Part shown: positions 9,374 to 27,309 of the stretch, in pieces | Numbering within the stretch: position 1 is the stretch's first letter | Layout of the letters: each line of letters begins with the position of its first letter | DNA from: an uncultured Pseudomonadales bacterium | Lineage (GTDB): Bacteria > Pseudomonadota > Gammaproteobacteria > Pseudomonadales > Azotimanducaceae | DNA length: 64,000 nucleotides | NCBI GenBank assembly: GCA_958296025.1 | Contig: OY282430.1 | Location: forward strand, 2,728,001-2,792,000 | Reading direction: 5' to 3' | Translations under genes and position numbers: made by a program | Notes under the pieces: generated by a model | What the model was told of the DNA's origin: nothing | Databases searched by the model: none | The model's input: the letters and a program-made list of their open reading frames with translations, nothing else

Positions 9374-10420
9374 GTGGCTTCAGTTAGCGTCTCTGGGCTA
9401 ACCCATAGGTACGGCACCGAAGTCAAGGTGCTGGACCGCATCGACCTCGATGTTGCGGATGGGGAGGCGCATGCGGTTTTGGGCGGTTCGGGCGCCGGCA
9501 AGACCACGTTGCTCAATTTGCTTTCCGGCTTGCTGCGCCCCAATTCGGGGACCATCGCGTTTGACGGCCGGGACCTGAAGGATGTGGACGCCGCAGAGCG
9601 CAACGTGGCGCAGGTGTTTCAGTTTCCGGTGCTCTATCCGGGGCTGGACGTGGCCGGCAACCTCGGCTTTCCTTTGGCTAACCGAAGGTGGGGCCGGGTG
9701 GCGGTTCGTCAAAGGGTCGGCGAGGTGGCGGAGTTGTTAGGCTTAACGCCGCTGTTGGACAAAAAAACCCGCGCCCTGTCGTTGTTCGAGAAGCAGATGA
9801 CGGCCATTGGCCGGGCCTTGGTGCGGCCCGACGTGGCGCTGGTGCTGCTCGACGAGCCGCTGACCGCCGTGGAGCCGGCGGCGAAATGGCGCTTGCGCCA
9901 AGCGCTGCAAAGGGTGCGGCGGGAGTTGCGGCTGACGATGATCTACGTCACCCACGATCAAACCGAAGCCCTGACCTTCGCCGAGCGCATCACCATGCTG
10001 CACCAAGGCAAGGTGCTGCAAACAGGGACGCCGGAGGATCTGTACGAACGCCCGGCCCATGAAGCGGTGGCGCGGTTCATCGGTTCGCCGGGCATGAACT
10101 TGGTTCCGGCGCGGGTGAGGAACGGCGAGCTCTGCATCGGCGGCCAAAGCCTATGTCCCTGCGCACTGGCGGATGGGGACTGCGTTGCCGGTTTTCGCCC
10201 GGAATGGGCAAGCATTGGAGATACGGGCATTCCGGTCAGCGTGCGCAGCGTTCGGCCGCTAAGCACTCTTGGTGGGATGCAAGTGGCTTTGGTGACCGCC
10301 GAAGTCGGCGGCGCAACCATTCACGTGCGCCAACCCATGCACGCCGCCGACAACGGCCAAGCCCGGGTGCGCATTGTCCCGGAGCGGCTTGTGCTTTACC
10401 GCCACGGCCGGCGCTTGTGA
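9374..10420 (+). CDS. ABC transporter ATP-binding protein, glycerol-uptake (GlpT-like) type
   Basis: A 348-aa MalK/UgpC-class ATPase that would power the permeases encoded next. Walker A is GGSGAGKTT (residues 36-44), Walker B is LVLLDEPL, and the H-loop is YVTHDQTEA. The ABC signature is degenerate (LSLFEKQ instead of LSGGQ), as is usual in the glycerol ABC ATPases. DEPLTAVEPAAKWRLRQAL and FIGSPGMN also point to that subfamily. The C-terminal TOBE-like domain is present. The start is GTG 9374. The reference glycerol operon (glpSTPQV of Rhizobium) has two different ATPases; only one is visible here, and a 207-bp gap separates it from the first permease. Confidence 0.85.
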   Translation: MASVSVSGLTHRYGTEVKVLDRIDLDVADGEAHAVLGGSGAGKTTLLNLLSGLLRPNSGTIAFDGRDLKDVDAAERNVAQVFQFPVLYPGLDVAGNLGFPLANRRWGRVAVRQRVGEVAELLGLTPLLDKKTRALSLFEKQMTAIGRALVRPDVALVLLDEPLTAVEPAAKWRLRQALQRVRRELRLTMIYVTHDQTEALTFAERITMLHQGKVLQTGTPEDLYERPAHEAVARFIGSPGMNLVPARVRNGELCIGGQSLCPCALADGDCVAGFRPEWASIGDTGIPVSVRSVRPLSTLGGMQVALVTAEVGGATIHVRQPMHAADNGQARVRIVPERLVLYRHGRRL

Positions 10421-10627: not shown

Positions 10628-11480
10628 ATGCAGCCTAGCCGCAACAACAAGGCTTGGCTGGCCGTGGCGCCGGTGGTGCTGGTGGTGGCGTTCAGCGCCA
10701 TCGTCCCGCTGATGACGGTGGTGAACTATTCGGTACAGGACATCTTTGACGTCAACACGCGCATCTTCGTCGGCCTGGATTGGTATCGGGAGACGCTGCG
10801 CGACCCTCGGTTTCTAGAGGCGCTGCTGCGTCAGCTGTCCTTCAGCGCCTTGGTGCTTGTCTTGGAAATTCCCCTCGGCATCTGGATTGCCCGCGCCATT
10901 CCTCGGCAGGGGCGGCAAACCACGGTCTTTCTCATCATTCTGGCCGTGCCGCTGTTGATTCCGTGGAACGTGGTCGGCGTGATCTGGCAGATCTTCGCCC
11001 GACCGGACATCGGCTTGCTCGGCGCGGCAGTGTCCGCCCTCGGCGTCTCCTACAACTACACCAGCTCCCCGGTGGACGCTTGGGTCACGCTGTTGCTCAT
11101 GGACGTCTGGCATTGGACCTCTCTAGTCGCCCTGCTTTGCTTCGCCGGCTTGGCCTCCATCCCACCAGCCTACTACCAGGCAGCGGCATTGGACGGCGCC
11201 AAGGGCTGGCGTTTGTTCCGTCATGTGGAGTTGCCGCACCTCAGGTCCGTGCTGACCATCGCCGTGCTGCTGCGGGCCATGGACAGCCTGATGATCTACA
11301 CGGAGCCGTTCGTGCTGACCGGCGGCGGCCCCGGCGCAAGCACCACCTTCCTAAGCCAATACCTCACCACCATGGCGGTGGGGCAGTTCGACCTAGGCCC
11401 GGCGGCGGCCTTCTCCGTACTGTACTTCCTGCTGATCCTGCTGCTGTGCTGGATCTTCCACGCCAGCGTGATGCGCCGCG

Positions 11481-11488
<8 letters not shown>
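10628..11488 (+). CDS. glpP: ABC transporter permease, glycerol-type (GlpP-like)
   Basis: A 286-aa inner-membrane permease of the MalF-like class with about six hydrophobic segments (the first is LAVAPVVLVVAFSAIVPLM, residues 11-29). The EAA loop that docks the ATPase reads YYQAAALDGAKGWRLFRHVELP, near residues 180-201. FVLTGGGPGASTTFLSQYL is typical of carbohydrate/polyol permeases. The downstream permease overlaps it by 8 bases, so translation is coupled. It is assigned to the glycerol system mainly because DUF2160 and the distinctive binding protein belong to the same locus. Confidence 0.85.
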
Positions 11489-12283
<795 letters not shown>

Positions 12284-12284
<1 letters not shown>

Positions 12285-12556
12285 TGTCGTGGATGGCTTG
12301 GACTTGGCAGACCGCCGCCTTCTTCAGCGCCATCGGCCTAGCGCTGGCGGCGATGACCTGGGCGGAGGTTCGCTGGCCGACCAAGGTGCGCCAAGGCTTC
12401 CTGCCCATGCCCACCACCCGGGGCGACCGCTTCTTCATCAGCCTGCTGGGCAGCGCCGTCGTCCATGTGGCTTGGCTGGCGGCGACGGACGCCCCGGTCG
12501 GATGGGCCAGTATGCTCTGCGTCGGTTACGCTGGGGCGGTGATGCGCTACGGATAG
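12284..12556 (+). CDS. DUF2160 small membrane protein of the glycerol ABC operon
   Basis: A 90-aa protein with hydrophobic stretches (TAAFFSAIGLALAAMTW near residues 10-26 and a second near 50-85) around a basic loop with WPTKVRQGFLPMPTTRGDRFF. Proteins of this family are regularly encoded between the second permease and the binding protein in glycerol ABC operons; the molecular role is not known. The start overlaps the permease stop. In this genome the expected next gene, the binding protein, is displaced by 7.5 kb because other genes intervene. Confidence 0.8.
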
Positions 12557-12577
12557 CCCCTGCACACATGTGGGCCT

Positions 12578-15500
12578 TTAGGGGGCCGCGCTCAAGTCCA
12601 CGATGGACAGAGACTCGCCCAGTGAGCGACGGGCGATGTCCACGAGGTGCCAATGATGGGTGAAGAACAGCACCTGGGTTCTCTCCGCCAGCCCTCTCAG
12701 CACCTCGAATCCGGCGCCGGCCCGGTCGTCGTCGAAGTTGACGAACAGGTCGTCGGCGACGAAGGGGAGCGCCTCCGCACGGTCCAGGTAGTCCTCGACG
12801 GACGCGATGCGCAGCGCAAGAAAGAGCTGATCCGCGGTTCCCGTGCTCATGCCGGAGACGGGTACGGCCTGCCGGTCCGGCCTCCGTCCGATCAAGCTCG
12901 CCCGATCCTGATCATCGTAATCGACCTCCAAGGTGGTGAACGCTCCGCCGGTCAGCATCTCGAAGAGCCTGCCTGCCCGCTTGAGCAGCGGGGCCTGTTT
13001 TTCTTGCCGGTAACGGTCGATCGCCCATCGCAGAAGCATGGCTGACGTGCGCACCCGGACGTAACGCCCGGCGATCCGGCGCATCTCGGCAAGCGCTTCC
13101 TGTCGCGCCGCTTCGGCCCGCGCTGCGGCATCGGTGCCGCCTGTCGCTTCGAATGCTTCCCTAGCCTGCGATCTGTTTTCGGCGGCGGTGGCCGACCGTC
13201 TGCGCAGATCGTCCAGCTCGCAGGCGTTCGTCTCTTCCTGGGCCGCGAGCCGGTCGATGTCCACGCCGGCGCATTCTTCGACCAGGCGCTCGACGGACAG
13301 GCCATCGCCTTCCTGTTCGAGCAATGCGAGGGTGTCGGCCAATTCCTTCCGGAGGGCGCGGCATGTGTCGGATCGCTCGATGGCCTGCCCGAGCTCGTCC
13401 ATCGTGCCGGCGCCGGCCGCATCCTCGAGATGCTTCACCGACTCGCGTGCCTGCCGGCGGTCCTCCTCCATCCCGGCGATCTGCTTCTCAATGGCGGCCG
13501 CTTCCTCCCGCTTGCGTGCCAGAAGGTCGCGGACGCGCTCCGCTTCGCCCAGGCGGCTCTCGATTTCGAGAACGGCCTCTTCCGCCGACGTGTCCGAGAG
13601 AGCGGCGGCCGTTTCGCGGACGAATTCGGCCACCGCGGACTCGAAGTCGGCAACGTCCCGGTTGATCTTTTCGATCCGCTGATGTCGGAGCTCCTTGATC
13701 CGGACCGCCCTTTCACGCATCTGGTCGATGACGTCGATCTGGGTGGCCACGGCGTCCGGAGGCAGGTCCGCCGCCAGTCCGAGCGCGGACAGGGCGGCCG
13801 ACCACTGGCCTTGCCATTGCGACTGCGCCTCTTGTGTGCGGGTGAGCGCACGGTCGCGCTGCTCGACGCCGGCCTCTGCCTCTTGTAACTCCTCTTGCAG
13901 CCGTGCCTTGGCCTCGGCCTTCTGCCGATGCTCTCGCCGGATACGGTCAGCGCGTTCCAGAACCACGGGCAGGGGGTCGTTTTCGAGAGTGGTGCGATCG
14001 ATGGCCAATGCCGCCAGCTCAGCGAGCAGACCGTCCCGGGCGCGACGCACTTCCTCGATCCGGAGTGCCAGGGCGCTCTCCGCTGCCACCCGCCGTTCAA
14101 TGGCCTCGATCAGGTCGCGGCGCTTGTCCAGCCATTCCAGCATGGCATCGGGCGCATGAGGCTCGAACGGCGCACCGACCCACATGGCACGCCATTCGGA
14201 GCCGAGGCGTCCGCCCTCTTGAGTGAGCGTTTCCTCTTGCGTACGCAGCTCGGCCGAATCGTCTTCGATCCCGGCGATGGTGCGCAACCGCTCCGCCAGA
14301 TGCGCAGCCGCTTCGGCGTTGTCGAAACGGCGATCGGCCAGCGCGTCGGCGGACCGCATCGCCTGCTCGAACGTCTCCGGAAGGCCGGATAGCTCGCCAG
14401 CGCCGTCATGGGCTTTCTCGACCGGAATGGGCGTGTTGTCGACGTACCTGAACTTCACCCGTTCCCAGAGTGTGTCCCGCTCGGCCCGCGCCGCCTGAAG
14501 CGTGTCCAGCGGGACTACGTCCCCATCGCGGATGGCGTTCTCGTAAGCCTTCCGGGCGCGAGCAAGGTCCCGTTCGGCAGCTTCGATCTTCTGGCGGATC
14601 TCGCGAGTCTGCCGCTCGCGGTCCTGGACCAAGTCACGATGACGCTGCACCTCCGTCCGGGCCGGCACACGCATGGCCACGGCGTCCTCTTCGTTCGAGA
14701 CGCTCGGATGCAGTAGCCAGAGCAGACGTTCGACGTGCTTTCGCACGTCCTGGACGCCTTGTGTCGCGGCATCAAGGCGGCCGGTGAGGTCACCGCTCTC
14801 CCGAACCGTTCGGATCACCACGTCCAATGGGGTGGTTTCCGCGGCATCCCCCGAGGCGTCGAGGCGCTCCTGCAACCGGGCACGTTCGGCCCTTGCCTCT
14901 TCCAGAGCCTCGGCGCTCATCGCGACCTCCGAGGACAGCTCACCGCGCCGGCCGAGCAGCGAACGCACCGTACCGACCCGAGGGCGTGCTGGAATGCGAT
15001 CGATCAGCGCACCGACCTCGTCCGTCTGCCAACCCAGCTCAGCCGCCAAGTCGCAGAGCTCCCTTTCCGCGGCGTCGAGCTCCGCCCGGCGTTTCGGCAG
15101 ATCGGCCTTTTCACGTCGCGTCTCGATACGACGCTCATGTAGCTGCCGCACGTCATCCGTGCGCAATACGAGCTCTTCGTCGTATGTCAGCCCTTCCAGT
15201 GCCTTGCGCGTCGCATCGCGCTGACCGGAGAGCGTGTCGATCCGCGCCGACGCCTCGGACTCCCTGCTCCGCGACCGATCGAGAACCTGTCTGGCATCCT
15301 CCGGCAAGACGACGACCTTTCCCAGCGCCTCGATCCGCCCGTCCAGATGGGCCTTGCGCCGCACGTGACGATAGACCCTGCGGATCCGGCCGATCCGCCT
15401 GCCCTGGGCGGAGACCTCTTCGAAGTGCGCTTCGATTTTCGCGCAGGCGTCCTGTGCCACCTCAAAGGCCCGTTTTCGCTCCTGCCACTTGTCCGCGCTC

Positions 15501-16108
15501 AGCGTCTGCTGCCGGAGCGCTTCGCCGGCAGCCTTCAGCTTGTCATCGGCCTGGTAATACTCCCGGTGGCTCGCCCGCCGTTGCGCCCAGAGTGCATCGG
15601 CTTGCTCCGAAAGCCGTGCGAGGTGGTCCCGCAGTCCTGCCGTCCCGGTCCCGGCCGAGAAGATGATCTCGCCTACCTCATCCTTCGCATCCAAGATTTC
15701 CCGGCCGCCTTTTTCGAGCCGAACGCGGTCGAGGCTGAACATCCGTCGGAAGAAGCGCCGATCCGCGCCGGCCAGGAAGGGCCTGAGCACTCCCTCGCCA
15801 CCGGCCACCGGCAAGCCATCGGTGCCGAGGAGGGTGTCCGTTATGCCTTTGCGGCGAACCATTTGCAAGGAAGCCTCCGCGTGTTCGATCCAGGCGCCGA
15901 CCCGCATGTCGGAATAGTCGTGCAGGAAGCCGTAGGGCGAACGCGCCGGGATGCCGAAGAGCAAGTCCTCTATCGCGCAAAGCGCGGTGGACTTGCCCGC
16001 TTCGTTGGGGCCGAAGACGACGTGGACGTCGGCGCCGCCGAGGGGCAGCTCGATCGAACGGTCCGTGAAGTGTCCGTAGCGGAGAAGGTCCAAGCGCCGC
16101 AAACGCAC
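12578..16108 (-). CDS. YhaN-like SMC/Rad50-type AAA ATPase
   Basis: A 1176-aa ATPase of the Rad50/SbcC superfamily, YhaN branch. The N-terminus begins VRLRRLDLLRYGHFTDRSIE and has Walker A GPNEAGKST. About 800 residues of heptad-rich, Glu/Arg-rich coiled coil follow. The C-terminal ATPase half has the ABC-type signature region SGMSTGTADQLFLALR, Walker B PFVADDLFVNFDDDR and a switch histidine in FFTHHWHL. The start is GTG 16108, chosen because GGGAGAAGG lies six bases upstream and it avoids overlap with the preceding stop at 16110; an upstream start at 16126 is possible. With the phosphoesterase gene before it, it should form a DNA-end-processing nuclease complex. It lies antisense to, and inside, the glycerol importer operon. 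Confidence 0.85.
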   Translation of the reverse strand: MRLRRLDLLRYGHFTDRSIELPLGGADVHVVFGPNEAGKSTALCAIEDLLFGIPARSPYGFLHDYSDMRVGAWIEHAEASLQMVRRKGITDTLLGTDGLPVAGGEGVLRPFLAGADRRFFRRMFSLDRVRLEKGGREILDAKDEVGEIIFSAGTGTAGLRDHLARLSEQADALWAQRRASHREYYQADDKLKAAGEALRQQTLSADKWQERKRAFEVAQDACAKIEAHFEEVSAQGRRIGRIRRVYRHVRRKAHLDGRIEALGKVVVLPEDARQVLDRSRSRESEASARIDTLSGQRDATRKALEGLTYDEELVLRTDDVRQLHERRIETRREKADLPKRRAELDAAERELCDLAAELGWQTDEVGALIDRIPARPRVGTVRSLLGRRGELSSEVAMSAEALEEARAERARLQERLDASGDAAETTPLDVVIRTVRESGDLTGRLDAATQGVQDVRKHVERLLWLLHPSVSNEEDAVAMRVPARTEVQRHRDLVQDRERQTREIRQKIEAAERDLARARKAYENAIRDGDVVPLDTLQAARAERDTLWERVKFRYVDNTPIPVEKAHDGAGELSGLPETFEQAMRSADALADRRFDNAEAAAHLAERLRTIAGIEDDSAELRTQEETLTQEGGRLGSEWRAMWVGAPFEPHAPDAMLEWLDKRRDLIEAIERRVAAESALALRIEEVRRARDGLLAELAALAIDRTTLENDPLPVVLERADRIRREHRQKAEAKARLQEELQEAEAGVEQRDRALTRTQEAQSQWQGQWSAALSALGLAADLPPDAVATQIDVIDQMRERAVRIKELRHQRIEKINRDVADFESAVAEFVRETAAALSDTSAEEAVLEIESRLGEAERVRDLLARKREEAAAIEKQIAGMEEDRRQARESVKHLEDAAGAGTMDELGQAIERSDTCRALRKELADTLALLEQEGDGLSVERLVEECAGVDIDRLAAQEETNACELDDLRRRSATAAENRSQAREAFEATGGTDAAARAEAARQEALAEMRRIAGRYVRVRTSAMLLRWAIDRYRQEKQAPLLKRAGRLFEMLTGGAFTTLEVDYDDQDRASLIGRRPDRQAVPVSGMSTGTADQLFLALRIASVEDYLDRAEALPFVADDLFVNFDDDRAGAGFEVLRGLAERTQVLFFTHHWHLVDIARRSLGESLSIVDLSAAP

Positions 16109-16109
16109 G

Positions 16110-17384
16110 TCAGCCTTCTCCCGCAATCAGCCGGGCCGAGAGGTAGGGCGTGACCTCGGTGATCATCCCGGCGTAATCACCGTCGACGGCCGCCTTCAAC
16201 ACCGCGTCCTCGGCCTCCGACCGCAGTGCGTGGGGCAGTCGGCGGATCAACTCGCCAACGTCGTCCTGAAGCGGTTGCAGAAGGCGGGGGTCGCCGCCCG
16301 CTTCCGGCAGCATGCGTAGCAGCTCGCCGACGGCGTCTTCGCGCTCCGCGAGAGCCTCCGGATCGACCTCTGGCTCCGTGGCGACGACGATCTTCTCTAT
16401 CCACGCCACGTCGTCGCCAAGCCCCAGCGCGGTCGAGCGCGTCTCGGCGAGAAGGCGATCGTCCGCGGCCAGGAGCTGCTCGTGGACCTCGGTGCGCCCT
16501 TGCAGAAGGATGCGGCACACCAGCAGCCGGCCGTCGGCCCGAACCGCGACGGCGCTTTCGATGGCGTCCCGGATGCGGTCCTCCGCCTCGGCGACGCTGC
16601 CGATCTGCGCCAGATCCACCGTAACGACCGCCCAGCGGACCACGTCGCAGGGCAAGGTCGTGACGTCGGTGACCTCTCCGTCTTCCACGCTGACCAAGCA
16701 GGCACCCTTGGGGCCGGCCTCCCGCACATGCCGCCCTTGCAGGTTGCCGGAAAACACGACGTGGGGCCGTTCGTTGAGCACCCGGGCCTGATGCACATGG
16801 CCGAGCGCCCAATAGTCGTATCCCTTGTTGACAAGGTCGTCGAGGGTGCAGGGGGCATAGTTCTGGTGGTCGCCCAGGCCGCCGAGTCCGGTGTGCAGAA
16901 CGCCGATGTTGAAAGCGCCGGGAACCGGCGCTGGGTAGCCCGCGGCCAGGTTGTCGGCAACGTCGCGCTGCCGGAAGCTCTGCCCGTGCAGGACCGCGTC
17001 CAGCCTCTCGACCTCGAAGGATTCGGGCCTTGCGGAGCCGAAGACGTTCACGTTGTCCGGGAGGCTGAGGCGGCGGGTGATCCGGCTCGCCGCGTCGTGG
17101 TTGCCGTAGAGCAGATAGACGGGAACCCCCGCTGCCCGGAGACGGCCCATCTGGCTCACGAAAAACAGGCCTGTCTTGTAGTCGCGCCAGTCGCCGTCGT
17201 ACAAATCACCGGCGATGACGAGGAACGCAACCCGTTCTTCAACGGCGTAGCCGACGAGCCGCTCGAATGCGCCACGCGTGGCGGTGCGGATGCGTTCAGC
17301 AGCGCTTCCCTCTTGCCCAGCCAGCCCCTTCAAGGGGCTGTCCAGATGAACGTCAGCGGTATGAAGGAAGCGAAAGGATCCCAA
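16110..17384 (-). CDS. YhaO-like / SbcD-type metallophosphoesterase (DNA repair exonuclease)
   Basis: A 424-aa calcineurin-like phosphoesterase of the Mre11/SbcD/YhaO group. The metal-binding motifs occur in order: HTADVHLD (residues 8-15), AGDLYDGDW (near 60), YGNHD (near 94) and, after about 100 residues, GHVHQ. The C-terminal 150 residues form the capping/ATPase-docking part. It is expected to act as the nuclease subunit with the ATPase encoded immediately downstream. The start is TTG 17384 after GGAAATTGGACAG. In Bacillus the yhaO-yhaN pair is linked to DNA repair and competence; similar pairs also occur in bacterial defence regions, and the setting here suggests the latter. Confidence 0.88.
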   Translation of the reverse strand: MGSFRFLHTADVHLDSPLKGLAGQEGSAAERIRTATRGAFERLVGYAVEERVAFLVIAGDLYDGDWRDYKTGLFFVSQMGRLRAAGVPVYLLYGNHDAASRITRRLSLPDNVNVFGSARPESFEVERLDAVLHGQSFRQRDVADNLAAGYPAPVPGAFNIGVLHTGLGGLGDHQNYAPCTLDDLVNKGYDYWALGHVHQARVLNERPHVVFSGNLQGRHVREAGPKGACLVSVEDGEVTDVTTLPCDVVRWAVVTVDLAQIGSVAEAEDRIRDAIESAVAVRADGRLLVCRILLQGRTEVHEQLLAADDRLLAETRSTALGLGDDVAWIEKIVVATEPEVDPEALAEREDAVGELLRMLPEAGGDPRLLQPLQDDVGELIRRLPHALRSEAEDAVLKAAVDGDYAGMITEVTPYLSARLIAGEG

Positions 17385-17503
17385 CTGTCCAATTTCCGCG
17401 ATGATGACTAGTTACGGCCGACCTCCCCCAGACCGGCCCTTTAGAGCCTTCCGCAAAACTTCGGATCGACCCCAAGCCATTGTGACTGCATGTTCGGCGG
17501 GGA

Positions 17504-17785
17504 TCAATGGCGTGTAGGGGACCGCCAGGGCGATTTTAAGTTCGTTTGCTGGCGAAGCTGTTCCGCTCGGCCCTGCATTTGGGACGCGGGAAGTCGGGGG
17601 ACGGTTGGTTCCGGGTGGGCCAATCCAAACCGCCTGCGGCCGGCCCTGCGCCCAGGCGACCCCTGGGTCTCCCCAACTGCCGTCCAGTAGCACGTCCTCT
17701 CGAACCTGGACGGGCTCACGAAGGTCTCCGCCAGAAGACCCGGATGCCCGCGAAGCGCCTCCATGACAAAAAGAACGAAAATCAA
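17504..17785 (-). pseudogene. Remnant of an IS-associated DUF4338 protein
   Basis: The frame starting at 17785 reads HPGLLAETFVSPSRFERTCY followed by WTAVGETQGSPGR. This matches the conserved core of DUF4338 proteins (typically ETFV-P-RF-GTCY-A-W--LG-T-G), which accompany some insertion sequences. Similarity then fades and no full-length gene can be read, so it is a decayed fragment. It is the only recognisable content in the 530 bp between the YhaO-like gene and the HEPN gene; the rest shows no convincing gene. Its presence supports delivery of the surrounding block by a mobile element. Confidence 0.55.
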
Positions 17786-17913
17786 CTCAACGGCTATTGA
17801 GGCATATCCAAGCGCGAATGTCCAAAACCAAACTTATTCCAATTAAATCAACACATTGCGGAGAATAATAAAGTGGCTCCGGGTGATCCCCTACAAAATG
17901 TTGACACTTCACG

Positions 17914-19794
17914 GTGGGCCCTCTAGTATTGGCGTTCCGAGGCTTCGGCCAAACCGAAAATAGGGACGATGGCTCGCTCAGCAGGTACTTTGGTGCTCTG
18001 GGTGGGCGGGCCATCGGACCTTTCCCCAACATGCTCTTCCCACCGCTTGACAGCCTCTCGCGAGCTGACGAGTCTGCCGCCTTCGTAGCTTTGGCGTGGC
18101 AGGAACTGTTCGATTCCGACACGCCAGATTCGTATCGACCACTGCCGTTCGATGTCCGCTTCCTCGTAGCCGAGCTGTCCGACCTCGCTCAACTGGCCCG
18201 AGACGATAGCCGGTGGCGTCGCCACATCAAGACCGTCCAAGAAGAACTTCAGCAAACCGCCACTTCAGAATCGCTATGGCTGAAAAGCCACCGTTGGTCT
18301 GCCAGCCTGCTTGACAAGATCGGTGCGACAAAAGATTTGCACGAGGTGGGGGATCTGGCCGCGGTCTTCAGGAGCACATCCCCAAATGCCATGACAACGC
18401 TCGTTGATGCCCTGTGCCGGGAAGCAGAATCTTTGCCGAAAAACAAGAAGCGAACGTTGGAATGCCTACGGCTTTTGGCCGCCCACGCCCGCCAACACGG
18501 ATGGACGCCGGCGGATACGTCCGTAATCGAAAACAACGAAGATATCGTGCGGCCCCTCGAATCCGTCATCGATCGGATTGGAGCATCGCTGACGGGCCAA
18601 GAGCGCAAGTTCACCTGCATCCTTAGGCTGCATGGTGAACTTGCCACCGCCCAGTCGGTGTTCCAAGGATCACCCCAGTTTCGCCTAGCTAGAATGAGGG
18701 ACTATCCGAACGACCAACAGGGCCGTACATTTAGGCAGGAAGGCCGTGGGGATGAAACAGCTGTACTGTTTGAGAAAGTTGCCGCGTCGCATCAAGCAGC
18801 GGCCGATCAGGCCATAGGCGCTTGTCGCAGAATCGTGGACATTTACAATCTCTATAGGAATCGTCCGAGCCTCGAAATCAGCCCTCGTGTGCTCGTTAAC
18901 GACGGACGGCGCACAAGTGTCATTAGCCGCCGAACAGAACAATCGCTCGGAACGAAACCCCAGCGAAACGCTCGCTCTCTAGCCCGGAAAGCGCTCGATC
19001 GCCTGCCTTCCAGCGCACTCCACGAAGAAGGGTTGTGGAACGCTTTGGAGCATCACTCGCTCGCCCTTGCAAGTGTGGACGCAAAGGCTGGTCTGGTGGC
19101 GATGTGGACAGCGTTCGAGTGTCTGGTCGGGCGTGAGGAGAGAGTTCTTCGATGGATACCACCAATAGTGGCTTTGCGGCAAATCGAAAAGGACCTGAGG
19201 TATCTCGCTATTTGCTGTCACCGCCACTTCAGCGCCAATAATCTCCATCCGCCCCAATTTCTAGCCCGGTCCACCAGCTACTATGTGTCGCCGCGGGACG
19301 TCCTTGAAGCACTGACGTGCAAAACGCCCCATACACTGACGTTGGATCAACTGCTAGCGGAAGTGGCGCACCATCCGCTTCTTCGCTTTCGGCTGCACCA
19401 ATCTTGGTGCAATTTCCATAATCCGGCGGCCCTAGCACAGCGGCTAGACAGATCGAGGATTCACTTGGAGTGGAACTTGGCGAGAATCTACCGCGCTCGC
19501 AACATGATCGTTCATATGGGCCAAGTGCCAAGGTTCGCCCCTGAATTGATGTCTCATCTGCAATACTATTTCTCAAGATGCGTGACCCAAATAATTCGAG
19601 ATCTTAGAGAACATTCTGACAGGACGCTTTCCATGACCTTGGAGCTCAATCGGCAGCGCTTCTTCCATGTTTTGCAATGTTTTCAAAAGGATGCATCACA
19701 GGTGTCGGGCAGGCATCTATTCCCAAACGATGACGACTTCGAGGGCTATTTTCCATGGAACCGTGTTGGAAATACATCAATGGAGGGCAGCTAA
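17914..19794 (+). CDS. Large protein with C-terminal HEPN-like (Apea type) domain
   Basis: A 626-aa protein with no function I can name. The C-terminal third looks like an Apea-type HEPN domain: MWTAFECLVGREE around residue 400 and the R-x4-H motif RNMIVH at residues 529-534. HEPN domains with this motif are often metal-independent RNases or nucleotidyl-transfer targets in toxin-antitoxin and abortive-infection systems. The N-terminal 390 residues are helix-rich without a known motif; residues 110-200 look alpha-solenoid-like. Base composition is visibly less GC-rich than the core genes. The start is GTG 17914, with only a weak ribosome site, and could lie further upstream or downstream. It diverges from the YhaO/YhaN pair and lies in the same inserted block, so a shared defence role is an inference. 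Confidence 0.6.
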   Translation: MGPLVLAFRGFGQTENRDDGSLSRYFGALGGRAIGPFPNMLFPPLDSLSRADESAAFVALAWQELFDSDTPDSYRPLPFDVRFLVAELSDLAQLARDDSRWRRHIKTVQEELQQTATSESLWLKSHRWSASLLDKIGATKDLHEVGDLAAVFRSTSPNAMTTLVDALCREAESLPKNKKRTLECLRLLAAHARQHGWTPADTSVIENNEDIVRPLESVIDRIGASLTGQERKFTCILRLHGELATAQSVFQGSPQFRLARMRDYPNDQQGRTFRQEGRGDETAVLFEKVAASHQAAADQAIGACRRIVDIYNLYRNRPSLEISPRVLVNDGRRTSVISRRTEQSLGTKPQRNARSLARKALDRLPSSALHEEGLWNALEHHSLALASVDAKAGLVAMWTAFECLVGREERVLRWIPPIVALRQIEKDLRYLAICCHRHFSANNLHPPQFLARSTSYYVSPRDVLEALTCKTPHTLTLDQLLAEVAHHPLLRFRLHQSWCNFHNPAALAQRLDRSRIHLEWNLARIYRARNMIVHMGQVPRFAPELMSHLQYYFSRCVTQIIRDLREHSDRTLSMTLELNRQRFFHVLQCFQKDASQVSGRHLFPNDDDFEGYFPWNRVGNTSMEGS

Positions 19795-20092
19795 ACCGCA
19801 CAGGATTCGGTGCCTGACCAATACCGGCACTGTAGCTTTCTAGCCTGCCGCCCAGCATCGCCACGACAGGCTTGAGCGGTTTGAGGTTCAGCGCACAGGA
19901 GGCTTGTTCCCAAAATCAGCCTACCGCTGTCCCGTTAGAACTGATGGAGGACCCAAGCACGGCACTGGAGGGGAGACGTGGGCTACACCTTTCGGGTTGC
20001 GCCTCTGTTAACCTAGACCGGCGTTTGGGAGCGCTGGGGGCGGAGGTTGCTCCAGCGTCACCCACAACCCACCATGGAGGAATTCCGCCCGA

Positions 20093-21976
20093 ATGTTGCA
20101 TCAAACTGCCATCTTCGTCATGGAACAGGCTGCCTTCCAATCTGTCCGCCTAGTTGGCGGGAACGCTTGTTGGCGTCGCGCAAAGCGGCGAAATTCCGTC
20201 CTGGCCCTGCAACCCCTCACCCCGAAATCCGCCTCGGCCATCAGGCGGTGCTTCTGCGGGCTTGGGCTGCTGCTGCTCAGTGCCTGCGGCGGCGAGCCGG
20301 CCATTGATGAGATGGAGGCGAGTTACGCCGCCAATGCCGCCCGTTGGGTGGATGAGGAGTTTCAGCCGTCCACCCTAGGCCGCGATGCGCAACTGGCGGA
20401 AATGGCTTGGTTCACCGATGCGGCGGTGCCTTTGAGGGGCATGCGGATCAGCGTGGTCTCGGAGGCGTTGACCACCCACGCCTATGAATCCGAAGTGCTC
20501 ACCCGCGCCTTTGCCGACATCACCGGCCTGCAGGTCACCCACGACCTCATCCAAGAGGGTGACGTCATCGAGAAGCTGCAAACCCAAATGCAGTCCGGGC
20601 GCAACATCTATGACGCCTACGTCAACGACTCCGACCTGATCGGCACCCATTCCCGCTACGGCTACGTCGTGCCGCTTGCCGACTTCATGGCCGGAGAGGG
20701 CGCGAACTTCACCCTGCCCACCTTGGACATTGAGGACTTCATCGGCCGCAGTTTCACCACCGGGCCGGACGGCAAGCTCTATCAGTTGCCGGACCAGCAG
20801 TTCGCCAATCTCTATTGGTTCCGCTATGACTGGTTTCAGCGCGAGGACCTGCGCAGCCGCTTCCGCGAGGCCTACGGCTACGAACTGGGGGTGCCGGTCA
20901 ATTGGTCCGCCTATGAGGACATCGCCGAATTCTTCACCGAAAAGGTGGAAACCATCGATGGCGAGCGGGTCTATGGGCACATGGACTACGGCAAGAAGGA
21001 CCCCTCCCTCGGCTGGCGCTTCACCGACGCTTGGCTGTCCATGGCCGGCTCCGGGGATGTGGGCATCCCCAACGGCAGCCCGGTGGATGAATGGGGCATC
21101 CGTGTTGAGGGGTGCCGCCCGGTGGGTGCGTCAGTCCGCCGCGGCGGGGCGGCGAACGGCCCGGCGGCAGTCTATGCGCTGCGCAAGTACATGGAGTGGC
21201 TGAAGCGCTTCGCGCCGCCCCAAGCCGCCGGCATGACCTTCTCCGAAGCGGGGCCGGTGCCGGCCCAAGGCCGCATTGCGCAGCAGATCTTCTGGTACAC
21301 CACCTTCACTGCGGACATGATCGAGCCGGGGCTGGCCGTGGTCGATGCGGACGGCGCCCCCAAGTGGCGCATGGCGCCCTCCCCCCACGGCCCCTACTGG
21401 CAGGAGGGCATGAAGCTCGGCTACCAAGACGCCGGTTCTTGGACCTTGCTCAAGAGCACTCCCTTGGAGCGCCGCCAAGCGGCTTGGCTGTACGCCCAGT
21501 TCGTGGTGTCCAAGACCGTTTCGCTGAAGAAGACCTTGGTGGGGCTGACGCCGATCCGGGAATCCGACCTGAACTCCGCCGCCATGACCGAGGCGGCGCC
21601 CCGGCTGGGCGGCTTGGTGGAGTTCTACCGCAGCCCGGCCCGGGTGGCCTGGACCCCCACCGGCACCAATGTGCCGGACTACCCGAAGTTGGCCCAACTC
21701 TGGTGGCCCAATGTGGCCAACGCCGTCAGCGGCGCCGCCACTCCGCAACAGGCCATGGACACCCTAGCCCAACAACAGGACGAGGTGCTGGCCCGCTTGG
21801 AGCGCATCGGCATTCAGGGCGACTGCGGCCCCAAACTCAACCCGGAGGCCAACGCCGAAGAATGGCTGGCGCAACCGGGTGCTCCCAAATCGAAGCTGAG
21901 CAACGAAAAGCCGCCCGGAAAGACCGTGCCCTATGACGAATTGATAAGCGCTTGGCGGGAAGGACGGGCATCTTGA
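20093..21976 (+). CDS. glpV: Glycerol-type ABC transporter substrate-binding lipoprotein (GlpV-like)
   Basis: A 627-aa extracytoplasmic binding protein. A lipobox LLSAC with Cys65 follows a hydrophobic stretch (CGLGLLLLSAC), so the mature part is a lipoprotein or exported. The mature region has the binding-protein pattern of the glycerol system: LRGMRISVVSEALTTHAYESEV, TGLQVTHDLIQEGDVIEKLQ, YDAYVNDSDLIGTH. It would feed the permeases encoded at 10628-12284. The N-terminal 55 residues ahead of the signal sequence are unusually long and not secretory in character. ATG 20093 has a GGAGGA site, and ATG 20120 is the only other obvious in-frame start, so the native 5' end may have been lost when the foreign block was inserted. 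Confidence 0.82.
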   Translation: MLHQTAIFVMEQAAFQSVRLVGGNACWRRAKRRNSVLALQPLTPKSASAIRRCFCGLGLLLLSACGGEPAIDEMEASYAANAARWVDEEFQPSTLGRDAQLAEMAWFTDAAVPLRGMRISVVSEALTTHAYESEVLTRAFADITGLQVTHDLIQEGDVIEKLQTQMQSGRNIYDAYVNDSDLIGTHSRYGYVVPLADFMAGEGANFTLPTLDIEDFIGRSFTTGPDGKLYQLPDQQFANLYWFRYDWFQREDLRSRFREAYGYELGVPVNWSAYEDIAEFFTEKVETIDGERVYGHMDYGKKDPSLGWRFTDAWLSMAGSGDVGIPNGSPVDEWGIRVEGCRPVGASVRRGGAANGPAAVYALRKYMEWLKRFAPPQAAGMTFSEAGPVPAQGRIAQQIFWYTTFTADMIEPGLAVVDADGAPKWRMAPSPHGPYWQEGMKLGYQDAGSWTLLKSTPLERRQAAWLYAQFVVSKTVSLKKTLVGLTPIRESDLNSAAMTEAAPRLGGLVEFYRSPARVAWTPTGTNVPDYPKLAQLWWPNVANAVSGAATPQQAMDTLAQQQDEVLARLERIGIQGDCGPKLNPEANAEEWLAQPGAPKSKLSNEKPPGKTVPYDELISAWREGRAS

Positions 21977-22084: not shown

Positions 22085-22223
22085 TTGGCAGGCGCCAACC
22101 CGTCTGACCACCCGCAATTGACCCAGCTTTGGCGGCCCAAAATGGCCGACACGGAGCGGCGCCGTTTCTGCGCAACAGACCACAGACTCTTTGGCGCAGC
22201 AGCAGGACGAGGTGCTAGTCCGC
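22085..22223 (+). pseudogene. Decayed copy of the C-terminal part of the binding-protein gene
   Basis: The sequence reads ANPSDHPQLTQLWRPKMAD, then in another frame AQQTTDSLAQQQDEVLVR. These match TNVPDYPKLAQLWWPNVAN and PQQAMDTLAQQQDEVLAR near residues 525-570 of the intact upstream gene (bases 21665-21800). At least one frameshift separates the two blocks and the rest of the gene is missing. It is a relic of a tandem or recombined second copy. The 557 bp between the intact gene and mcrB otherwise contain only a doubtful small ORF. Confidence 0.7.
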
Positions 22224-22526: not shown

Positions 22527-22532
22527 GATTTG

Positions 22533-24665
22533 ATGATGATTGATTATTCTTGGGTGCCGTGGTTGCGGGACCTTGTCGCCGAGATCGCGGAAAACGGCGA
22601 AGACTACTTGGTTAAGAAGGCAAAGGCCGTAAGGTGGACTAAGGACGATGTGGCTCTGCTCCGATACGGCGACGAGAACATCGATCCGCTGTCGTTCTTG
22701 TACTTCCTCGCACGGGATAGAGGCGACGAGATGCTCCACTCCGAATTGAAGAGCGTCCACGAAGTATTTTCCATTGCAGCGGAATACCCCGAGAGCGTCC
22801 CTTTCATTCCCCGCCCAAGTGGAGTCAATACACTCTTTCACCAAGGCGGCAAGGGCCGCCCAGACTTGGTCTGGAGGCTATTCAAGCAGGCAGCAAAGGA
22901 GTCGCCTCAAATTAGTAGTAGCGACTTTGATGCCACCCTAAAGATAAAGAACGTCAAGATCAAAAAACTAACGCAGACGTTGTTTATGGTGAACCCCAAC
23001 TACTTCCTTCCTGCCGACGACACCAACGGGGTTCTGCCGGAGTTTCGAAAAAACGTGGGGAACTACGATGAGTACGTCGATCGGATGGAAGCCATTAAGT
23101 GCGAGTTTCCTGGCTGCGAGCCGTATGAAATCAACACCTTTCTTGCCACGCAGCGGGAGAAAGAGCCGCTCATTGCCAAGGGGTCGTGTTCCTTCCACGT
23201 CAGATCGGATGTCGAAAGAGATGGAGAAGACTATTGGGAAAAGACCGAAGCGTTGCCGAAAGATGCCGAGACCTTTAAGGAAAACCATGTGGTGTACACC
23301 GGGAGGGAACACAACAGTAAAGGCCAGCCCTATCCTGTGAAGAAACCAAAACGAGGTGACATCGTTATGGTGCATTTCGGCCGGTCCGAGGGACGCGGCA
23401 TCGGCGTAGTGGAGGAGAACGGCTATAACCCGGATGGTTGGCGCCCTGCCAAACGCATCTCTGTCTATTGGATAAACAAGAATCGGGGACGCCTCGATGG
23501 GCAATTGGGAACGCAGCGGTTCCGTCGCCTCGTTCCAAACCGAGGACGCTATCAAGCGTGCCGCAATGCCGATGCCTACAAGGTCTCCTTTGACTTGATT
23601 GAACGGTTGCAATCCAGCAGCGAACCTTCACCACAACCCGACAGGGAGCCTGGATCAGAGGTAGAGGAAATGGCACAGGCCAAATACGACGATCACTTGC
23701 CTTCGCTCAACACCGTCCTGTTCGGGCCGCCCGGCACCGGCAAGACATGGGAAGCGATTTCCTACGCCGTGGCGATCATAGATGGCGAAGATCCGTCGGA
23801 GCTTGCCAAGCCGGAAAAGCGAGAAGACGTCAAGGAACGCTTCGCGAAATTCAAAGAGCAGCGACAAATCGAGTTCGTCACCTTCCATCAGAACTACGCC
23901 TACGAGGACTTCATTGAAGGCATCAGGCCAGTCTTGAAAGGCGACCTCACCTACAAACTTTACAAGGGCGTTTTTAGAAGGATTTGCTCCCGAGCTCGCA
24001 AGCATAACGAGGATCGGTACGTTCTCATCATCGACGAAATCAACCGCGGCAACATCGCCAAGATTTTTGGAGAACTCATCACTCTGGTCGAGCCGTCCAA
24101 ACGGTTAGGCGAGAAAGACGAGGCTACGGCGACGCTGCCCTATTCGCAAAAGTCGTTCGGCGTTCCCTCGAATCTGTACATCGTCGGCACGATGAATACG
24201 GCGGACCGGAGCATCGCGCTCCTGGACACGGCGCCGCGTCGCCGCTTCGACTTCATCGAGATGATGCCCGACCCCACCTGGGTGGAAGAGGACATCGAGG
24301 GCGTTGACGGCCAGAAACTGCTTACCGACATCAATGTACGCATCAAGGCCGAGCTGGACCGAGAGCATCAGATTGGCCATACCTATCTCATCGAGGTCAA
24401 GACCATCGAACACCTCGCTAGGGCCTTTCAACACAGCATCCTGCCGTTGCTTCAGGAGTACTTCTACGACGACTGGGAGAAGATTCAGCGGGTGTTGAAC
24501 CACAATCCGTTCATCCGCAAGGACCCGGCCGCGCCAAGCGATGGCGACCCCGGCCGGCCCATGCTTGAACTGCTGCCGCGTAGTGATGAGCAGTGGCGGC
24601 AAGCCGAAAGCTACCAGAAAATCTACGCCCAGAGGGGCAGCGCAGAAGGGAACGAAGGCAGTTAG
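22533..24665 (+). CDS. mcrB: McrB-like AAA+ GTPase of a type IV restriction system
   Basis: A 710-aa protein. The C-terminal half is an McrB AAA+ motor: Walker A LFGPPGTGKTW, then FHQNYAYEDFIEGIRPVL, Walker B VLIIDEINRGNIAKIFGELI, the family signature GTMNTADRSIALLDTAPRRRF, and the sensor/arginine region. It would hydrolyse GTP to translocate DNA for the McrC nuclease. The N-terminal 370 residues are the specificity part. A segment at about residues 275-320 (GDIVMVHFGRSEGRGIGVVEENGY) looks like a small beta-barrel reader, but I cannot assign the modified base recognised. mcrC follows after one base. Composition is less GC-rich than neighbouring core genes. Confidence 0.9.
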   Translation: MMIDYSWVPWLRDLVAEIAENGEDYLVKKAKAVRWTKDDVALLRYGDENIDPLSFLYFLARDRGDEMLHSELKSVHEVFSIAAEYPESVPFIPRPSGVNTLFHQGGKGRPDLVWRLFKQAAKESPQISSSDFDATLKIKNVKIKKLTQTLFMVNPNYFLPADDTNGVLPEFRKNVGNYDEYVDRMEAIKCEFPGCEPYEINTFLATQREKEPLIAKGSCSFHVRSDVERDGEDYWEKTEALPKDAETFKENHVVYTGREHNSKGQPYPVKKPKRGDIVMVHFGRSEGRGIGVVEENGYNPDGWRPAKRISVYWINKNRGRLDGQLGTQRFRRLVPNRGRYQACRNADAYKVSFDLIERLQSSSEPSPQPDREPGSEVEEMAQAKYDDHLPSLNTVLFGPPGTGKTWEAISYAVAIIDGEDPSELAKPEKREDVKERFAKFKEQRQIEFVTFHQNYAYEDFIEGIRPVLKGDLTYKLYKGVFRRICSRARKHNEDRYVLIIDEINRGNIAKIFGELITLVEPSKRLGEKDEATATLPYSQKSFGVPSNLYIVGTMNTADRSIALLDTAPRRRFDFIEMMPDPTWVEEDIEGVDGQKLLTDINVRIKAELDREHQIGHTYLIEVKTIEHLARAFQHSILPLLQEYFYDDWEKIQRVLNHNPFIRKDPAAPSDGDPGRPMLELLPRSDEQWRQAESYQKIYAQRGSAEGNEGS

Positions 24666-24666
24666 C

Positions 24667-25917
24667 GTGCCCGTCATCAGGGAACACGAAGCGCTGACCG
24701 ACCTCACCGATGAGGAGCAAACGGACCTCAAGAAGTTTGCGCTTGCCAACCAAGAGGATCAGGAAGGCAAATATCGCCCGGTCTTGACTGCGAGGGACGG
24801 CAAGCTTTACGCACGGAACTACGTCGGTGTCATCGAGACGCGACGCGGCACGGTGCTCCAAATTCTGCCCAAGGTGGATTTCATCGAAGGGCAAGACAGC
24901 GAAGAGAGAACCCGCCAAATCTTTCTCGAGATGCTGCGCACCTACCGCGGCCTGCGCACCGCCCAATTCAACAAAACCAGCATCTCCGCGCTGCGCCGCT
25001 TCAACATGCTCGAAGCATTTGTGCGGCTGTTCCTGAACAACCTAGTGCTGCTCACGCAAAGGGGCCTCGCCCACCATTACAACGGCGTGGAGGACAATCT
25101 GCCGAGCCTTCGCGGGCGCATCCTGTTCCCGCAGCACCTTCGCCACAACGCGGCTAACCGAGCCCGCTTCTACGTCGGATTCGATGAGTTCACGGCCAAC
25201 CGGCCCGTGAATCGGTTGATTCACAGCACCCTCCACAAGCTAAGATCAACCACCCACCCGGCCAACCAACAACTGCTCCATCAGCTGCGTACCTGCTTCT
25301 CCGAGGTGCCCCAATCGGCGCGGCCCGAAGTGGACTGGAGGCAGCATCGAATCGACCGCTCCATGCACCACTACGACGCAGTGATGGACTGGGTGGGGCT
25401 GTTCCTGTTCAACCACGGCTTGACGACCTTCGCCGGCAAGCACGTCAACCAAGCGCTGCTGTTCCCGATGGAGGAGGTCTTTGAGGACTTCGTGGCCGAT
25501 GCCTTCAAGCGCCACCAACGCTGCTACACCGTAAAGAAGCAAGGGCCGAAAGAGCCGTTTACCCGCATCAAACACCAATGCGCTTTCGACATGAAGCCAG
25601 ATATCACGCTCCTGAAATCGAAGGAAGTGAAATTCATCCTCGACGCCAAGTGGAAGGAAATTGACGGCTCCGGCAATGAGCCGAAGCACAACGTCAGCCA
25701 AGGCGACATCTACCAACTATACGCCTACGGCAGAAAATTCGGCTGCACCACGGTGGCGTTGATCTATCCGCGAACGCAGAAGTTCAACTCGCCACTGAGG
25801 TACGAGTTCATCGACAAGGTGGCGGACCAGCCACTAACCCTGCTCTGCCTCCCCTTCGATGTCCAGCAACCAGAAAGCAGCGTCCAACAAACCTTGAACC
25901 AGCTAACCAACCACTAG
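24667..25917 (+). CDS. mcrC: McrC-like nuclease subunit of a type IV restriction system
   Basis: A 416-aa partner of the McrB-like motor. The N-terminal region (GTVLQILPKVDF, then the SALRRFNMLEAFVRLFLNNL helices) is the McrB-binding part. The C-terminal part carries a PD-(D/E)xK nuclease core: an Asp in FDMKPDITLL, then FILDAKWKEI, with the catalytic D and K in DAK. The start is GTG 24667, one base after the mcrB stop, with ribosome coupling; the frame is open further upstream, but those residues overlap mcrB and lack family similarity. Together the two genes form a McrBC system that cuts modified foreign DNA. Confidence 0.9.
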   Translation: MPVIREHEALTDLTDEEQTDLKKFALANQEDQEGKYRPVLTARDGKLYARNYVGVIETRRGTVLQILPKVDFIEGQDSEERTRQIFLEMLRTYRGLRTAQFNKTSISALRRFNMLEAFVRLFLNNLVLLTQRGLAHHYNGVEDNLPSLRGRILFPQHLRHNAANRARFYVGFDEFTANRPVNRLIHSTLHKLRSTTHPANQQLLHQLRTCFSEVPQSARPEVDWRQHRIDRSMHHYDAVMDWVGLFLFNHGLTTFAGKHVNQALLFPMEEVFEDFVADAFKRHQRCYTVKKQGPKEPFTRIKHQCAFDMKPDITLLKSKEVKFILDAKWKEIDGSGNEPKHNVSQGDIYQLYAYGRKFGCTTVALIYPRTQKFNSPLRYEFIDKVADQPLTLLCLPFDVQQPESSVQQTLNQLTNH

Positions 25918-25946
25918 CTCGGGCAACTTAAACCTTTTTAGCTGCT

Positions 25947-26756
25947 TCAGAAATCTATCCCAGGCTCCCCCCCTTGACACTTAGGGCATTTTCGTTCGTG
26001 CATGTCACTTCCGTTTGCCCCGTAAATGTGTTCACAATGAGTACAGCAAACTTTGTACGCATATTGATTGTGATCGGTCCCCTTCACCCATCGAGTACCA
26101 CAGCATAGCTGACCCCTGCGGTTTATATTTCCAACTTTTACTGAATCCCCGTTCCCATCCGCCCACTCTTCCGGCGATATATCATAGGAACCATCCTTTA
26201 TAAAATGCTCTTTTGCCCAAGCAGGAAGTTCCCTAATGTACATATCAGGTTTGTAATTGGAAATACTAGCAATCACCGAAAATTTGTGAGTGCTGTCAAC
26301 TAGATATGTTCGGTCACTCAAAATGGAAAGTTCAGATGCTGCAGACGGGGCATTTTCATAGATTTTTGAAATTGTTGAGGTGGATCGTCCGTGACCTCCT
26401 TCCCGTTTACCTTTAGTCACTCGCTCAATACAAATATCAACGCTTTCTGGACATACGAACCAACAATAAACAAAATATCCCGAATCCTTTGCCGGGACCA
26501 CAATGCGATCAATTGAGGCTGTCTCCAACACATGATCCAAAACAATTGGGCTGCGGCGCTCACTAATAGATTTGAGCATTTTTCCCGAAAGTCCGCACCA
26601 CGCTCTTTCCCGAGCGCCGGATTCTTCAACATCCCCTTCAGTACGCGCCCAATCGTCAAGATTGAAAATGGAGTTGTCCCAATCCGCTTGGTGTTTGCAA
26701 AACGTGCTTTTGCCACCACCGGATGGGCCAGTGACGACAATCAGTCTAGGATTCAA
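25947..26756 (-). CDS. Zeta-toxin-like P-loop kinase with C-terminal zinc ribbon
   Basis: A 269-aa protein. It begins with a kinase-type Walker A (VVTGPSGGGKST, residues 7-18), then FNLDDWAR, a position where zeta/UNAG kinases keep an Asp, and VLDHVLE further on. Residues 85-150 have the LID-like ESVDICIERVTKGKREGGHG. The C-terminal 50 residues form a zinc ribbon (CCTHCEHIYG, then KCPKCQGGEPG), which ordinary zeta toxins lack. The start is TTG 26756 with GGAG upstream; it overlaps the stop of the small gene by 4 bases (TTGA), so the two are translationally coupled. A toxin or a nucleotide/RNA kinase in a two-gene unit is likely, but the target is unknown. AT-rich composition indicates recent transfer. 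Confidence 0.6.
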   Translation of the reverse strand: MNPRLIVVTGPSGGGKSTFCKHQADWDNSIFNLDDWARTEGDVEESGARERAWCGLSGKMLKSISERRSPIVLDHVLETASIDRIVVPAKDSGYFVYCWFVCPESVDICIERVTKGKREGGHGRSTSTISKIYENAPSAASELSILSDRTYLVDSTHKFSVIASISNYKPDMYIRELPAWAKEHFIKDGSYDISPEEWADGNGDSVKVGNINRRGQLCCGTRWVKGTDHNQYAYKVCCTHCEHIYGANGSDMHERKCPKCQGGEPGIDF

Positions 26757-26962
26757 GACTCTGGCTCCAAAGGCGTATCATCTTGATAGTTTTGGCGAAC
26801 TCCATCGGCATCTATTAGCACCTTTTCGGTTCCGTTGGGGAATAACTCAATTGTCGCCCCGCCTTTGCCAACAATGGCGCTCAAGCCCAGCATATGCCGG
26901 TCTCTGACTGGATTTGCTACGGCAGCGCGCTTAAAAGCGCTTATCTCTGGATTGTCTGGCAT
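26753..26962 (-). CDS. Small protein translationally coupled to the zeta-like kinase (possible antitoxin)
   Basis: A 69-aa protein from MPDNPEISAFKRAA; AGGAA lies eight bases before this ATG, which is why I prefer it to the longer frame starting at 27010. The body VGKGGATIELFPNGTEKVLIDADGVRQNY is predicted to be a small beta structure and matches nothing I recognise. Its stop overlaps the kinase start by four bases. A small gene immediately before a toxin-like gene, coupled to it, suggests an antitoxin, but this is inference from layout only; it does not resemble the epsilon antitoxin. Confidence 0.5.
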   Translation of the reverse strand: MPDNPEISAFKRAAVANPVRDRHMLGLSAIVGKGGATIELFPNGTEKVLIDADGVRQNYQDDTPLEPES

Positions 26963-27132
26963 TCGTTTTTTTTCCTGCTGTGCTAGGCGCTCAGCTTGCT
27001 TGCAGCCCACAAACTTGGTAAGGCCGCGCTGGTCTATGGGTTCGTAGCATCAACGGCCGCCCCTGAAGATGGGGCATCAATCTGCATATGTCAAGGGCAA
27101 GCCATGACGCGAAGCCTTAACGGCCCCTTTGG

Positions 27133-27309
27133 GCTGTGATGGAGGGCAGACGGAAGGCGAAGGGGCGGGTGGAGCGGACCAACGGGACGCCGCAGGACCG
27201 CTCGGTCAAGGAGATGCGGCTGCGTGGCATCGACGGCATGGAGGCCGCCACCAGCTATCTGACGGAGTTCATGGAGGACCACAACCAGCGCTGCGCCACT
27301 GCAAAAACG
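27133..27309 (+). pseudogene. IS transposase fragment (ISNCY-like)
   Basis: The frame around 27136 reads GRVERTNGTPQDRSVKEMRL followed by RGIDGMEAATSYLTEF and MEDHNQRCA. This is the conserved C-terminal part of the DDE domain of ISNCY-type transposases (usual form GRVERANxTLQDRLVKELRLxGI). No upstream part or complete ends are seen. The frame runs into the 3' end of the methyltransferase gene on the other strand, so the element is a truncated relic. The 120 bp before it hold no gene. Confidence 0.65.

Follow-up and report, generated by a model that had tools for sequence, protein, structure and literature searches.

How does a conserved operon for nutrient import come to stand open between two consecutive genes, and what fills the gap? 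The question is raised by a window of 64,000 nucleotides from an uncultured bacterium of the Azotimanducaceae (Pseudomonadales), taken from positions 2,728,001 to 2,792,000 of contig OY282430.1 (assembly GCA_958296025.1). Here 7.5 kb separate the two permease genes and the DUF2160 gene of a putative glycerol ATP-binding cassette (ABC) importer from the gene of its solute-binding lipoprotein (SBP). A preliminary description of the window had read this stretch as a foreign, defence-like block inserted precisely at the operon joint. The comparison with relatives described below makes it very probable that the joint between DUF2160 and SBP serves as a recurrently used insertion hotspot peculiar to this genus, within a conserved importer operon and with partly defensive cargo.

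The positions given earlier for the importer genes were borne out by Pfam searches. On the forward strand stand an ATPase, the cluster's second and GlpT-like (9374–10420; PF00005, E-value 4e-26; the nearest NCBIfam model, UgpC, under its cut-off), permease A (permA, 10628–11488; PF00528, 3e-14), permease B (permB, 11481–12284; PF00528, 1e-8) and, as the left flank of the joint, the intact gene of the small membrane protein DUF2160 (12284–12556; PF09928, 4e-31). The SBP gene (20093–21976; SBP_bac_1, 9e-11) forms the right flank. The antisense YhaN/YhaO-like pair and the open reading frame (ORF) with a HEPN domain were also found where they had been placed. Since the YhaN stop lies 21 bases past the DUF2160 stop on the opposite strand, these two genes are convergent. 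The name GlpSTPQUV-type glycerol ABC importer is based on gene content, and the glycerol label stays putative on that ground; no importer protein scored above the cut-off of a curated NCBIfam equivalog. Of the six genes of the glycerol-importer-type set, five are found close together in the window, the first ATPase being elsewhere. PMC11223650, in the part used here, lists a set of glp genes.

Nine genus members, one genome per species, were compared (G000, the window's own genome, to G008), within a set of 58 relatives, own genome included, that gave SBP matches in 22 and permB matches in 31, many of the latter weak paralogues. All six genes, for both ATPases, both permeases, DUF2160 and SBP, are clustered in G002, G004, G006, G007 and G008. 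An assembly error behind the insert is unlikely, because the same insert occupies the same joint in G005 with 95% DNA identity and both genomes are single contigs.

Elsewhere the joint is mostly closed. In G002 and G004 only 16 and 138 bases lie between DUF2160 and SBP, and the two genes also adjoin outside the genus, so the empty site that the preliminary description had called for exists, and its own counter-possibility, a binding protein always kept at a separate locus, fails. In the family, an SBP match was found in 60 of 206 genomes and a strong permB match in 53. Among the 51 SBP-matching family genomes outside the genus, 43 carry SBP and permB on the same contig, and the joint is closed in 42 of these (permB to SBP, 329–548 bp); in the one other, G077, SBP stands on the opposite side at a distance of 3.2 kb. 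The remaining eight, including G011 with a weak SBP match, were left out of this count because SBP lay on another contig or no permB match was found. Named loci gave 588 matches; in 77 of the best 80, the end of the DUF2160 match and the start of the SBP match are at most 336 bp apart. Locus L105 carries SBP twice, with the first copy adjacent, and L109 and L117 have no permease at the locus. The earlier statement that the binding-protein gene normally follows DUF2160 directly agrees with 77 of 80 named loci and 42 of 43 same-contig family genomes. Median lengths in 75 of the 80 were 16 bp for permA|permB, 12 bp for permB|DUF2160 and 239 bp for DUF2160|SBP, the last probably too large, as the SBP starts were set heuristically. 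Judged from these sequences, the closed joint is the common state, and also the ancestral one, because the importer tree (in which the SBP row of G008 carried an over-long ORF, as in the tree-conflict test below) sets the closed-joint species G002 and G004 outside the open-joint clade, with G000/G005 sister to the rest of it.

Within the genus, the joint is open on one contig in six of the nine genomes (G000, G001, G005, G006, G007 and G008), so that one conserved gene pair flanks varying cargo. G000 and G005 share one block, consisting of the YhaO–YhaN pair (YhaON) and the HEPN gene (protein identities 93%, 93% and 91%). G001 and G008 carry only an antisense Rieske-type oxygenase. The joint of G006 holds, in order, PsyrTA (PsyrT, E-value 6e-269; PsyrA, 2e-126), a Rieske gene and the DUF4143 AAA ATPase of the PADLOC candidate system PDC-S01 (2e-52). 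That of G007 holds a type II restriction-modification pair (MTase_II, 9e-118; XcyI-type restriction endonuclease, 2e-15) together with decayed pieces of a Rieske gene, and the palindrome before its SBP is the same as that at the DUF4143 start of G006. In G003, DUF2160 and SBP lie on different contigs, which would fit insertion and rearrangement alike. Behind its DUF2160 follow 13 called genes; the nine scanned belong to metabolism, transport or regulation (AMP-binding, luciferase-like, amidohydrolase, TRAP, MFS, MerR), and one gene behind DUF2160 is a DUF4143 relative (40%). The G003 SBP is preceded by a restriction-modification pair 84% like that of G007. Altogether seven cargo units were recognized at the joint: four matching defence families (ApeA-like, PsyrTA, candidate PDC-S01 and type II restriction-modification), the uncertain YhaON and two metabolic ones, the Rieske oxygenase and, with its flanks on separate contigs, the G003 block.

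The other joints of the cluster served as a control, covering this importer in the nine genus genomes. Gene-sized inserts numbered none at GlpT|permA, one at permA|permB (G005), none at permB|DUF2160, and six at DUF2160|SBP, with G003 a possible seventh. No recombinase was seen among the cargo genes scanned (ORFs of at least 80 residues; in G003, nine of the 13 genes behind DUF2160 and one of the 11 before SBP). As to a landing site, no tRNA was found in the window and no Rfam family in 8000–34000.

Why this joint should tolerate inserts may lie in the SBP gene. We infer that it is, or became, a transcription unit of its own with a short private upstream region, and the joint would tolerate inserts for that reason. 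A candidate for such a region is the stretch at 19975–20092 (forward strand), where DNA identity between G000 and G005 reaches 98% (19975–20034) and 95% (20035–20094), compared with 82–90% before and 85–88% after it. About 70–75 bp before the SBP start are conserved in five sister species despite different adjoining cargo; this block has a sharp common start, GGTGGCCACC, and includes a TATACT element. A window scan found no consensus promoter in 19975–20092. Once opened, the joint would give harbour to cassettes that are gained and lost again, probably by illegitimate or homologous recombination and without an integrase of their own. The right edge of the window's insert is not fixed, because 19780–20330 matches only G005 at the DNA level among the relatives compared.

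The SBP start itself (20093–20263) is unusual. At the position where relatives start, both G000 and G005 have the non-standard codon ATC, and upstream in-frame ATGs add 40–50 codons that evolve almost neutrally (ratio of nonsynonymous to synonymous substitution rates, dN/dS, 0.81; all such values are for G000 against G005). Either the start is lost, or else a long extension or an unusual start is in use.

The cargo at the joint in the window consists of YhaON and of the gene for an ApeA-like, putative HEPN ribonuclease that probably arrived on its own. The latter (18031–19794, forward strand) was listed as an ORF of 17914–19794. A sigma-70-like promoter match precedes it (17901–17929, forward; TTGACA-17-TAGTAT, 10 of 12 positions), one of four of that grade in 12200–20300, where 1.1 were expected. 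Since this match covers the listed start at 17914, and since G005 has the first 26 listed codons in a different frame, the ATG at 18031, giving 587 residues, is the more likely start. The protein matches the solved ApeA structures 9hxj and 9hxd (E-values 2.5e-9 and 4.8e-9; best over residues 336–521, C-terminal only) and the PADLOC ApeA model (8e-5); it gave no family match in Pfam or NCBIfam. The RN-x3-H motif, presumed to be the catalytic one, is present (riyrarnmivhmg, compared with riyrtrnnivhsg in ApeA; common riyr.rn.ivh). The likeness to the anti-phage ApeA HEPN proteins (PDB 9hxb–9hxn) lies in the C-terminal region, the HEPN motif and the length (587 against 593 residues); the best ApeA matches show no sequence similarity in the N-terminal half. 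An abortive-infection defence is the likeliest role of this putative ribonuclease. The protein is rare, with a single further match, of 24% identity, in 369 sampled genomes of the class, and among the 58 relatives only G005 has it in addition to the window's own genome. Its GC content is 55%, and that at third codon positions (GC3) is 0.60, compared with 0.77–0.86 in the 11 host genes used.

On the reverse strand lie the YhaN-like (SbcC-like) ATPase (12578–16126; AAA_27, E-value 2e-70) and the YhaO-like (SbcD/Mre11-like) phosphoesterase (16110–17384; Metallophos, 2e-12; SbcD/Mre11 structures, best 1e-7). An AAA_27 ATPase adjoining an Mre11-type phosphoesterase is the arrangement of a YhaO/YhaN pair, the name tentatively used here for this SbcCD-like pair. 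The gene pair is what it shares with the SbcCD and YhaO–YhaN repair pairs, and it differs from them in its patchy distribution. The best YhaN copies among the 58 genomes are those of G005 (93%) and then G023 (44%), and a sample of 390 genomes of the order, the window's own among them, has YhaO relatives (E-value of at most 1e-40) in 11. The pair's GC of 67% and GC3 of 0.79–0.82 are near those of the host. Because the GC of the two units differs, 67% against 55%, the analysis suggests that YhaON and the ApeA-like gene were acquired separately. The term foreign therefore fits the ApeA-like gene and not YhaON. Calling the cargo defence-like is well founded for the ApeA-like gene and for several sister-species cargos, and weakly founded for YhaON.

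Between both units lies a repeat (17504–17619, no strand assigned), of which about 100 bases have five further long matches in the genome, 78–91% identical, and one 32-base match. The preliminary description had called it the relic of a DUF4338 insertion sequence; this did not hold, the open peptide having no Pfam match at an E-value of up to 1. A resemblance to DruA-like proteins is presumed. At the edge of the repeat, G005 has about 77 extra bases with a 9-base overlap.

Additionally, the cluster is opened at other places. A second block lies on the other side of SBP, where the MMPL transporter gene follows directly 3' in five sister species; G002 has a 2.6-kb gap with other genes there, and in G000 and G005 about eight kb intervene, with McrB, McrC and an AAA ATPase. 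In the window, the forward strand carries an incomplete, decayed copy of the 3' part of SBP (22091–22223; 72–74% to the SBPs of G001, G003, G006 and G008, and 69 nt at 77% to its own SBP), an McrB-like AAA protein (22530–24665; AAA_5, E-value 2e-13; NCBIfam McrB, 4e-37, far under its cut-off), McrC (24667–25917; PF10117, 1e-79), the AAA ATPase (28728–30104; AAA_22, 1e-10) and the MMPL transporter (30246–32678; PF03176, 2e-37). A type II-like DNA methyltransferase (27310–28551, reverse; PADLOC MTase_II, 2e-27) is an addition in the window; of 25900–28800 just 27296–27400 and 28673–28800 match the G005 locus. G005 has an Xre-RES toxin-antitoxin pair just behind SBP (L049, 906–1818), followed by a partial SBP copy. 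The window lacks this pair, showing a short matching sequence only, and keeps the partial copy at 22091–22223. G005 further has a ribbon-helix-helix and PIN (VapBC-like) pair between permA and permB (L049, 12600–13234), and the start of permB is partly duplicated there; a full-length permB follows the PIN module. In the window, hemE stands upstream in place of the first ATPase, whose best homologue (67%; next 35%) is at G000:C1:3310088, about 560 kb away. In G005, no first ATPase was found within 15 kb of the cluster. On contig C80 of G001, about 13 kb of other genes separate the two importer ATPase genes.

These further openings could mean that the importer is decaying, relaxed selection admitting any insert while the operon is dismantled. 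The displaced first ATPase with hemE in its place, the toxin-antitoxin module between the permeases of G005, the 13 kb between the ATPase genes of G001 and the blocks on both sides of SBP all agree with this. The substitution rates do not: dN/dS is 0.09 for permA, 0.05 for permB (255 codons) and 0.14 for mature SBP, glpT, permA, permB, DUF2160 and SBP all fall within 0.05–0.20 with no internal stops, and permB was kept at full length behind the PIN module. With values this low in the permeases and mature SBP, the importer looks to be under purifying selection and in use, as far as substitution patterns tell, and we regard its decay as unlikely. The cargo genes are constrained as well, less so than the importer (YhaN 0.43, YhaO 0.35, HEPN 0.36 over 597 codons). 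Neither does a single foreign defence block, inserted once and with the inserts of other species as unrelated coincidences, explain the genus. G000 and G005 do carry one orthologous block, and no Rieske remnant was found at the window's joint; against this stand G001/G008, G006 and G007, whose DUF2160|SBP joints hold other cargo, compared with 42 of 43 joints closed outside the genus, and the differing compositions of the ApeA-like gene and YhaON, which make the block look composite. As a full account the one-off insertion was rejected, since sister species carry different cargo, and this reading is the least probable of those weighed, very improbable in our judgement. The claim of a precise insertion at the operon joint was thus right in that a formerly continuous joint has been opened, and fails as a single event, given the differing cargo of sister species and the second insert downstream of SBP.

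A further reading is targeted docking, in which a site-specific process working on short repeats makes the joint a slot for defence cassettes. In G006, a 22-bp direct repeat with identical copies brackets PsyrTA (L052, 3829–7329) at the 3' end of a Rieske oxygenase gene; five species share the sharp right boundary GGTGGCCACC, and partial permB and SBP duplications lie beside the toxin-antitoxin modules of G005. However, the edges of the window block share direct repeats of 8 bases only, and those of G001 of 9 bases, which is chance level; GGTGGCCACC occurs once in the window, far off at 43335, and the cargo scanned has no recombinase. It is unlikely that integrase-free cassettes enter and leave through short direct repeats, leaving the importer gene and a privately promoted SBP intact. 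If this were true, a nutrient-import operon would double as the defence locus of the genus.

Several observations weigh against the recurrently used hotspot itself. The wide DUF2160|SBP gap is not general, because that of G002 measures only 16 bases. The promoter score of 61 intergenic stretches of named loci was 7.46, compared with 7.58 for shuffled sequence, and 186 of 200 mononucleotide shuffles reached it; together with the scan above, this leaves the private promoter a conjecture. The SBP and transporter trees gave no conflict in approximately unbiased tests (p = 0.28 and 0.12) that would point to recombination at the flanks. The Rieske oxygenase and the G003 block are metabolic, not defensive, and a defence role of YhaON is uncertain and without independent support, the four neighbours scanned in G023 being unremarkable genes (cupin, APH-like, NlpE, DEAD helicase). 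The control for insertion load covers the joints of the importer cluster. Moreover, the joint may have opened once, or once in each of two open clades, and counts of species overstate independence because the opening may be one ancestral event.

Most of 8258–32692 aligns to G005 at 90.7–95.5%. A sampled comparison of the two genomes (20 G000 pieces matched with the locus and 60 pieces of G005, counting blocks from 800 bases upward with identity over 80%; a small sample with repeats in it) gave 38 blocks over 65.6 kb with a weighted identity of 86.9%, a median of 84% and a maximum of 96.6%. The higher identity at the locus is suggestive of exchange or of slow change there. Synteny with G005 seems to end at 8258, the upstream pieces matching another place in G005 at 78–84%.

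The recurrently used hotspot thus describes a conserved importer operon open at one joint, with differing, partly defensive cargo and importer genes still under selection. An empty site, a small insert and nested inserts form a natural series in which the tolerance of an operon joint can be studied, and DUF2160 and SBP offer a marker pair for finding new defence systems in the genus. A narrow literature search for defence inserts in ABC transporter operons, or for defence hotspots within operons, found no paper. The portion of PMC5635113 drawn on states the view that acquired genes keep out of the interior of operons. The nearest known systems are the core defence hotspots cDHS1 and cDHS2 of P. 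aeruginosa (PMC10250203), which, in the text available to us, share the fixed conserved flanks, the variable cargo with several defence systems, the absence of a single mobile element and the composite build-up. Unlike there, the flanks here are consecutive genes of one importer operon, the cargo is partly metabolic, and the sample is nine genomes, one per species. In E. coli, as the excerpted text of PMC10121019 reports, defence hotspots are mostly filled by recognizable mobile elements, chiefly prophages, with 18 of 41 in tRNA loci and a median occupancy of 8%; the likeness is that a given pair of core genes may be empty in one genome and occupied in another, whereas here no integrase was seen and six of nine species are occupied. 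Hotspots of horizontal gene transfer without mobile elements are also known (Oliveira 2017, PMC5635113), and, within the passages used, resemble this one in gene turnover without recognizable mobile elements, but the present site lies inside a conserved operon and showed no conflict of flank trees. Core defence hotspots and hotspots free of mobile elements are known, and such a hotspot inside an importer operon would be the new feature.

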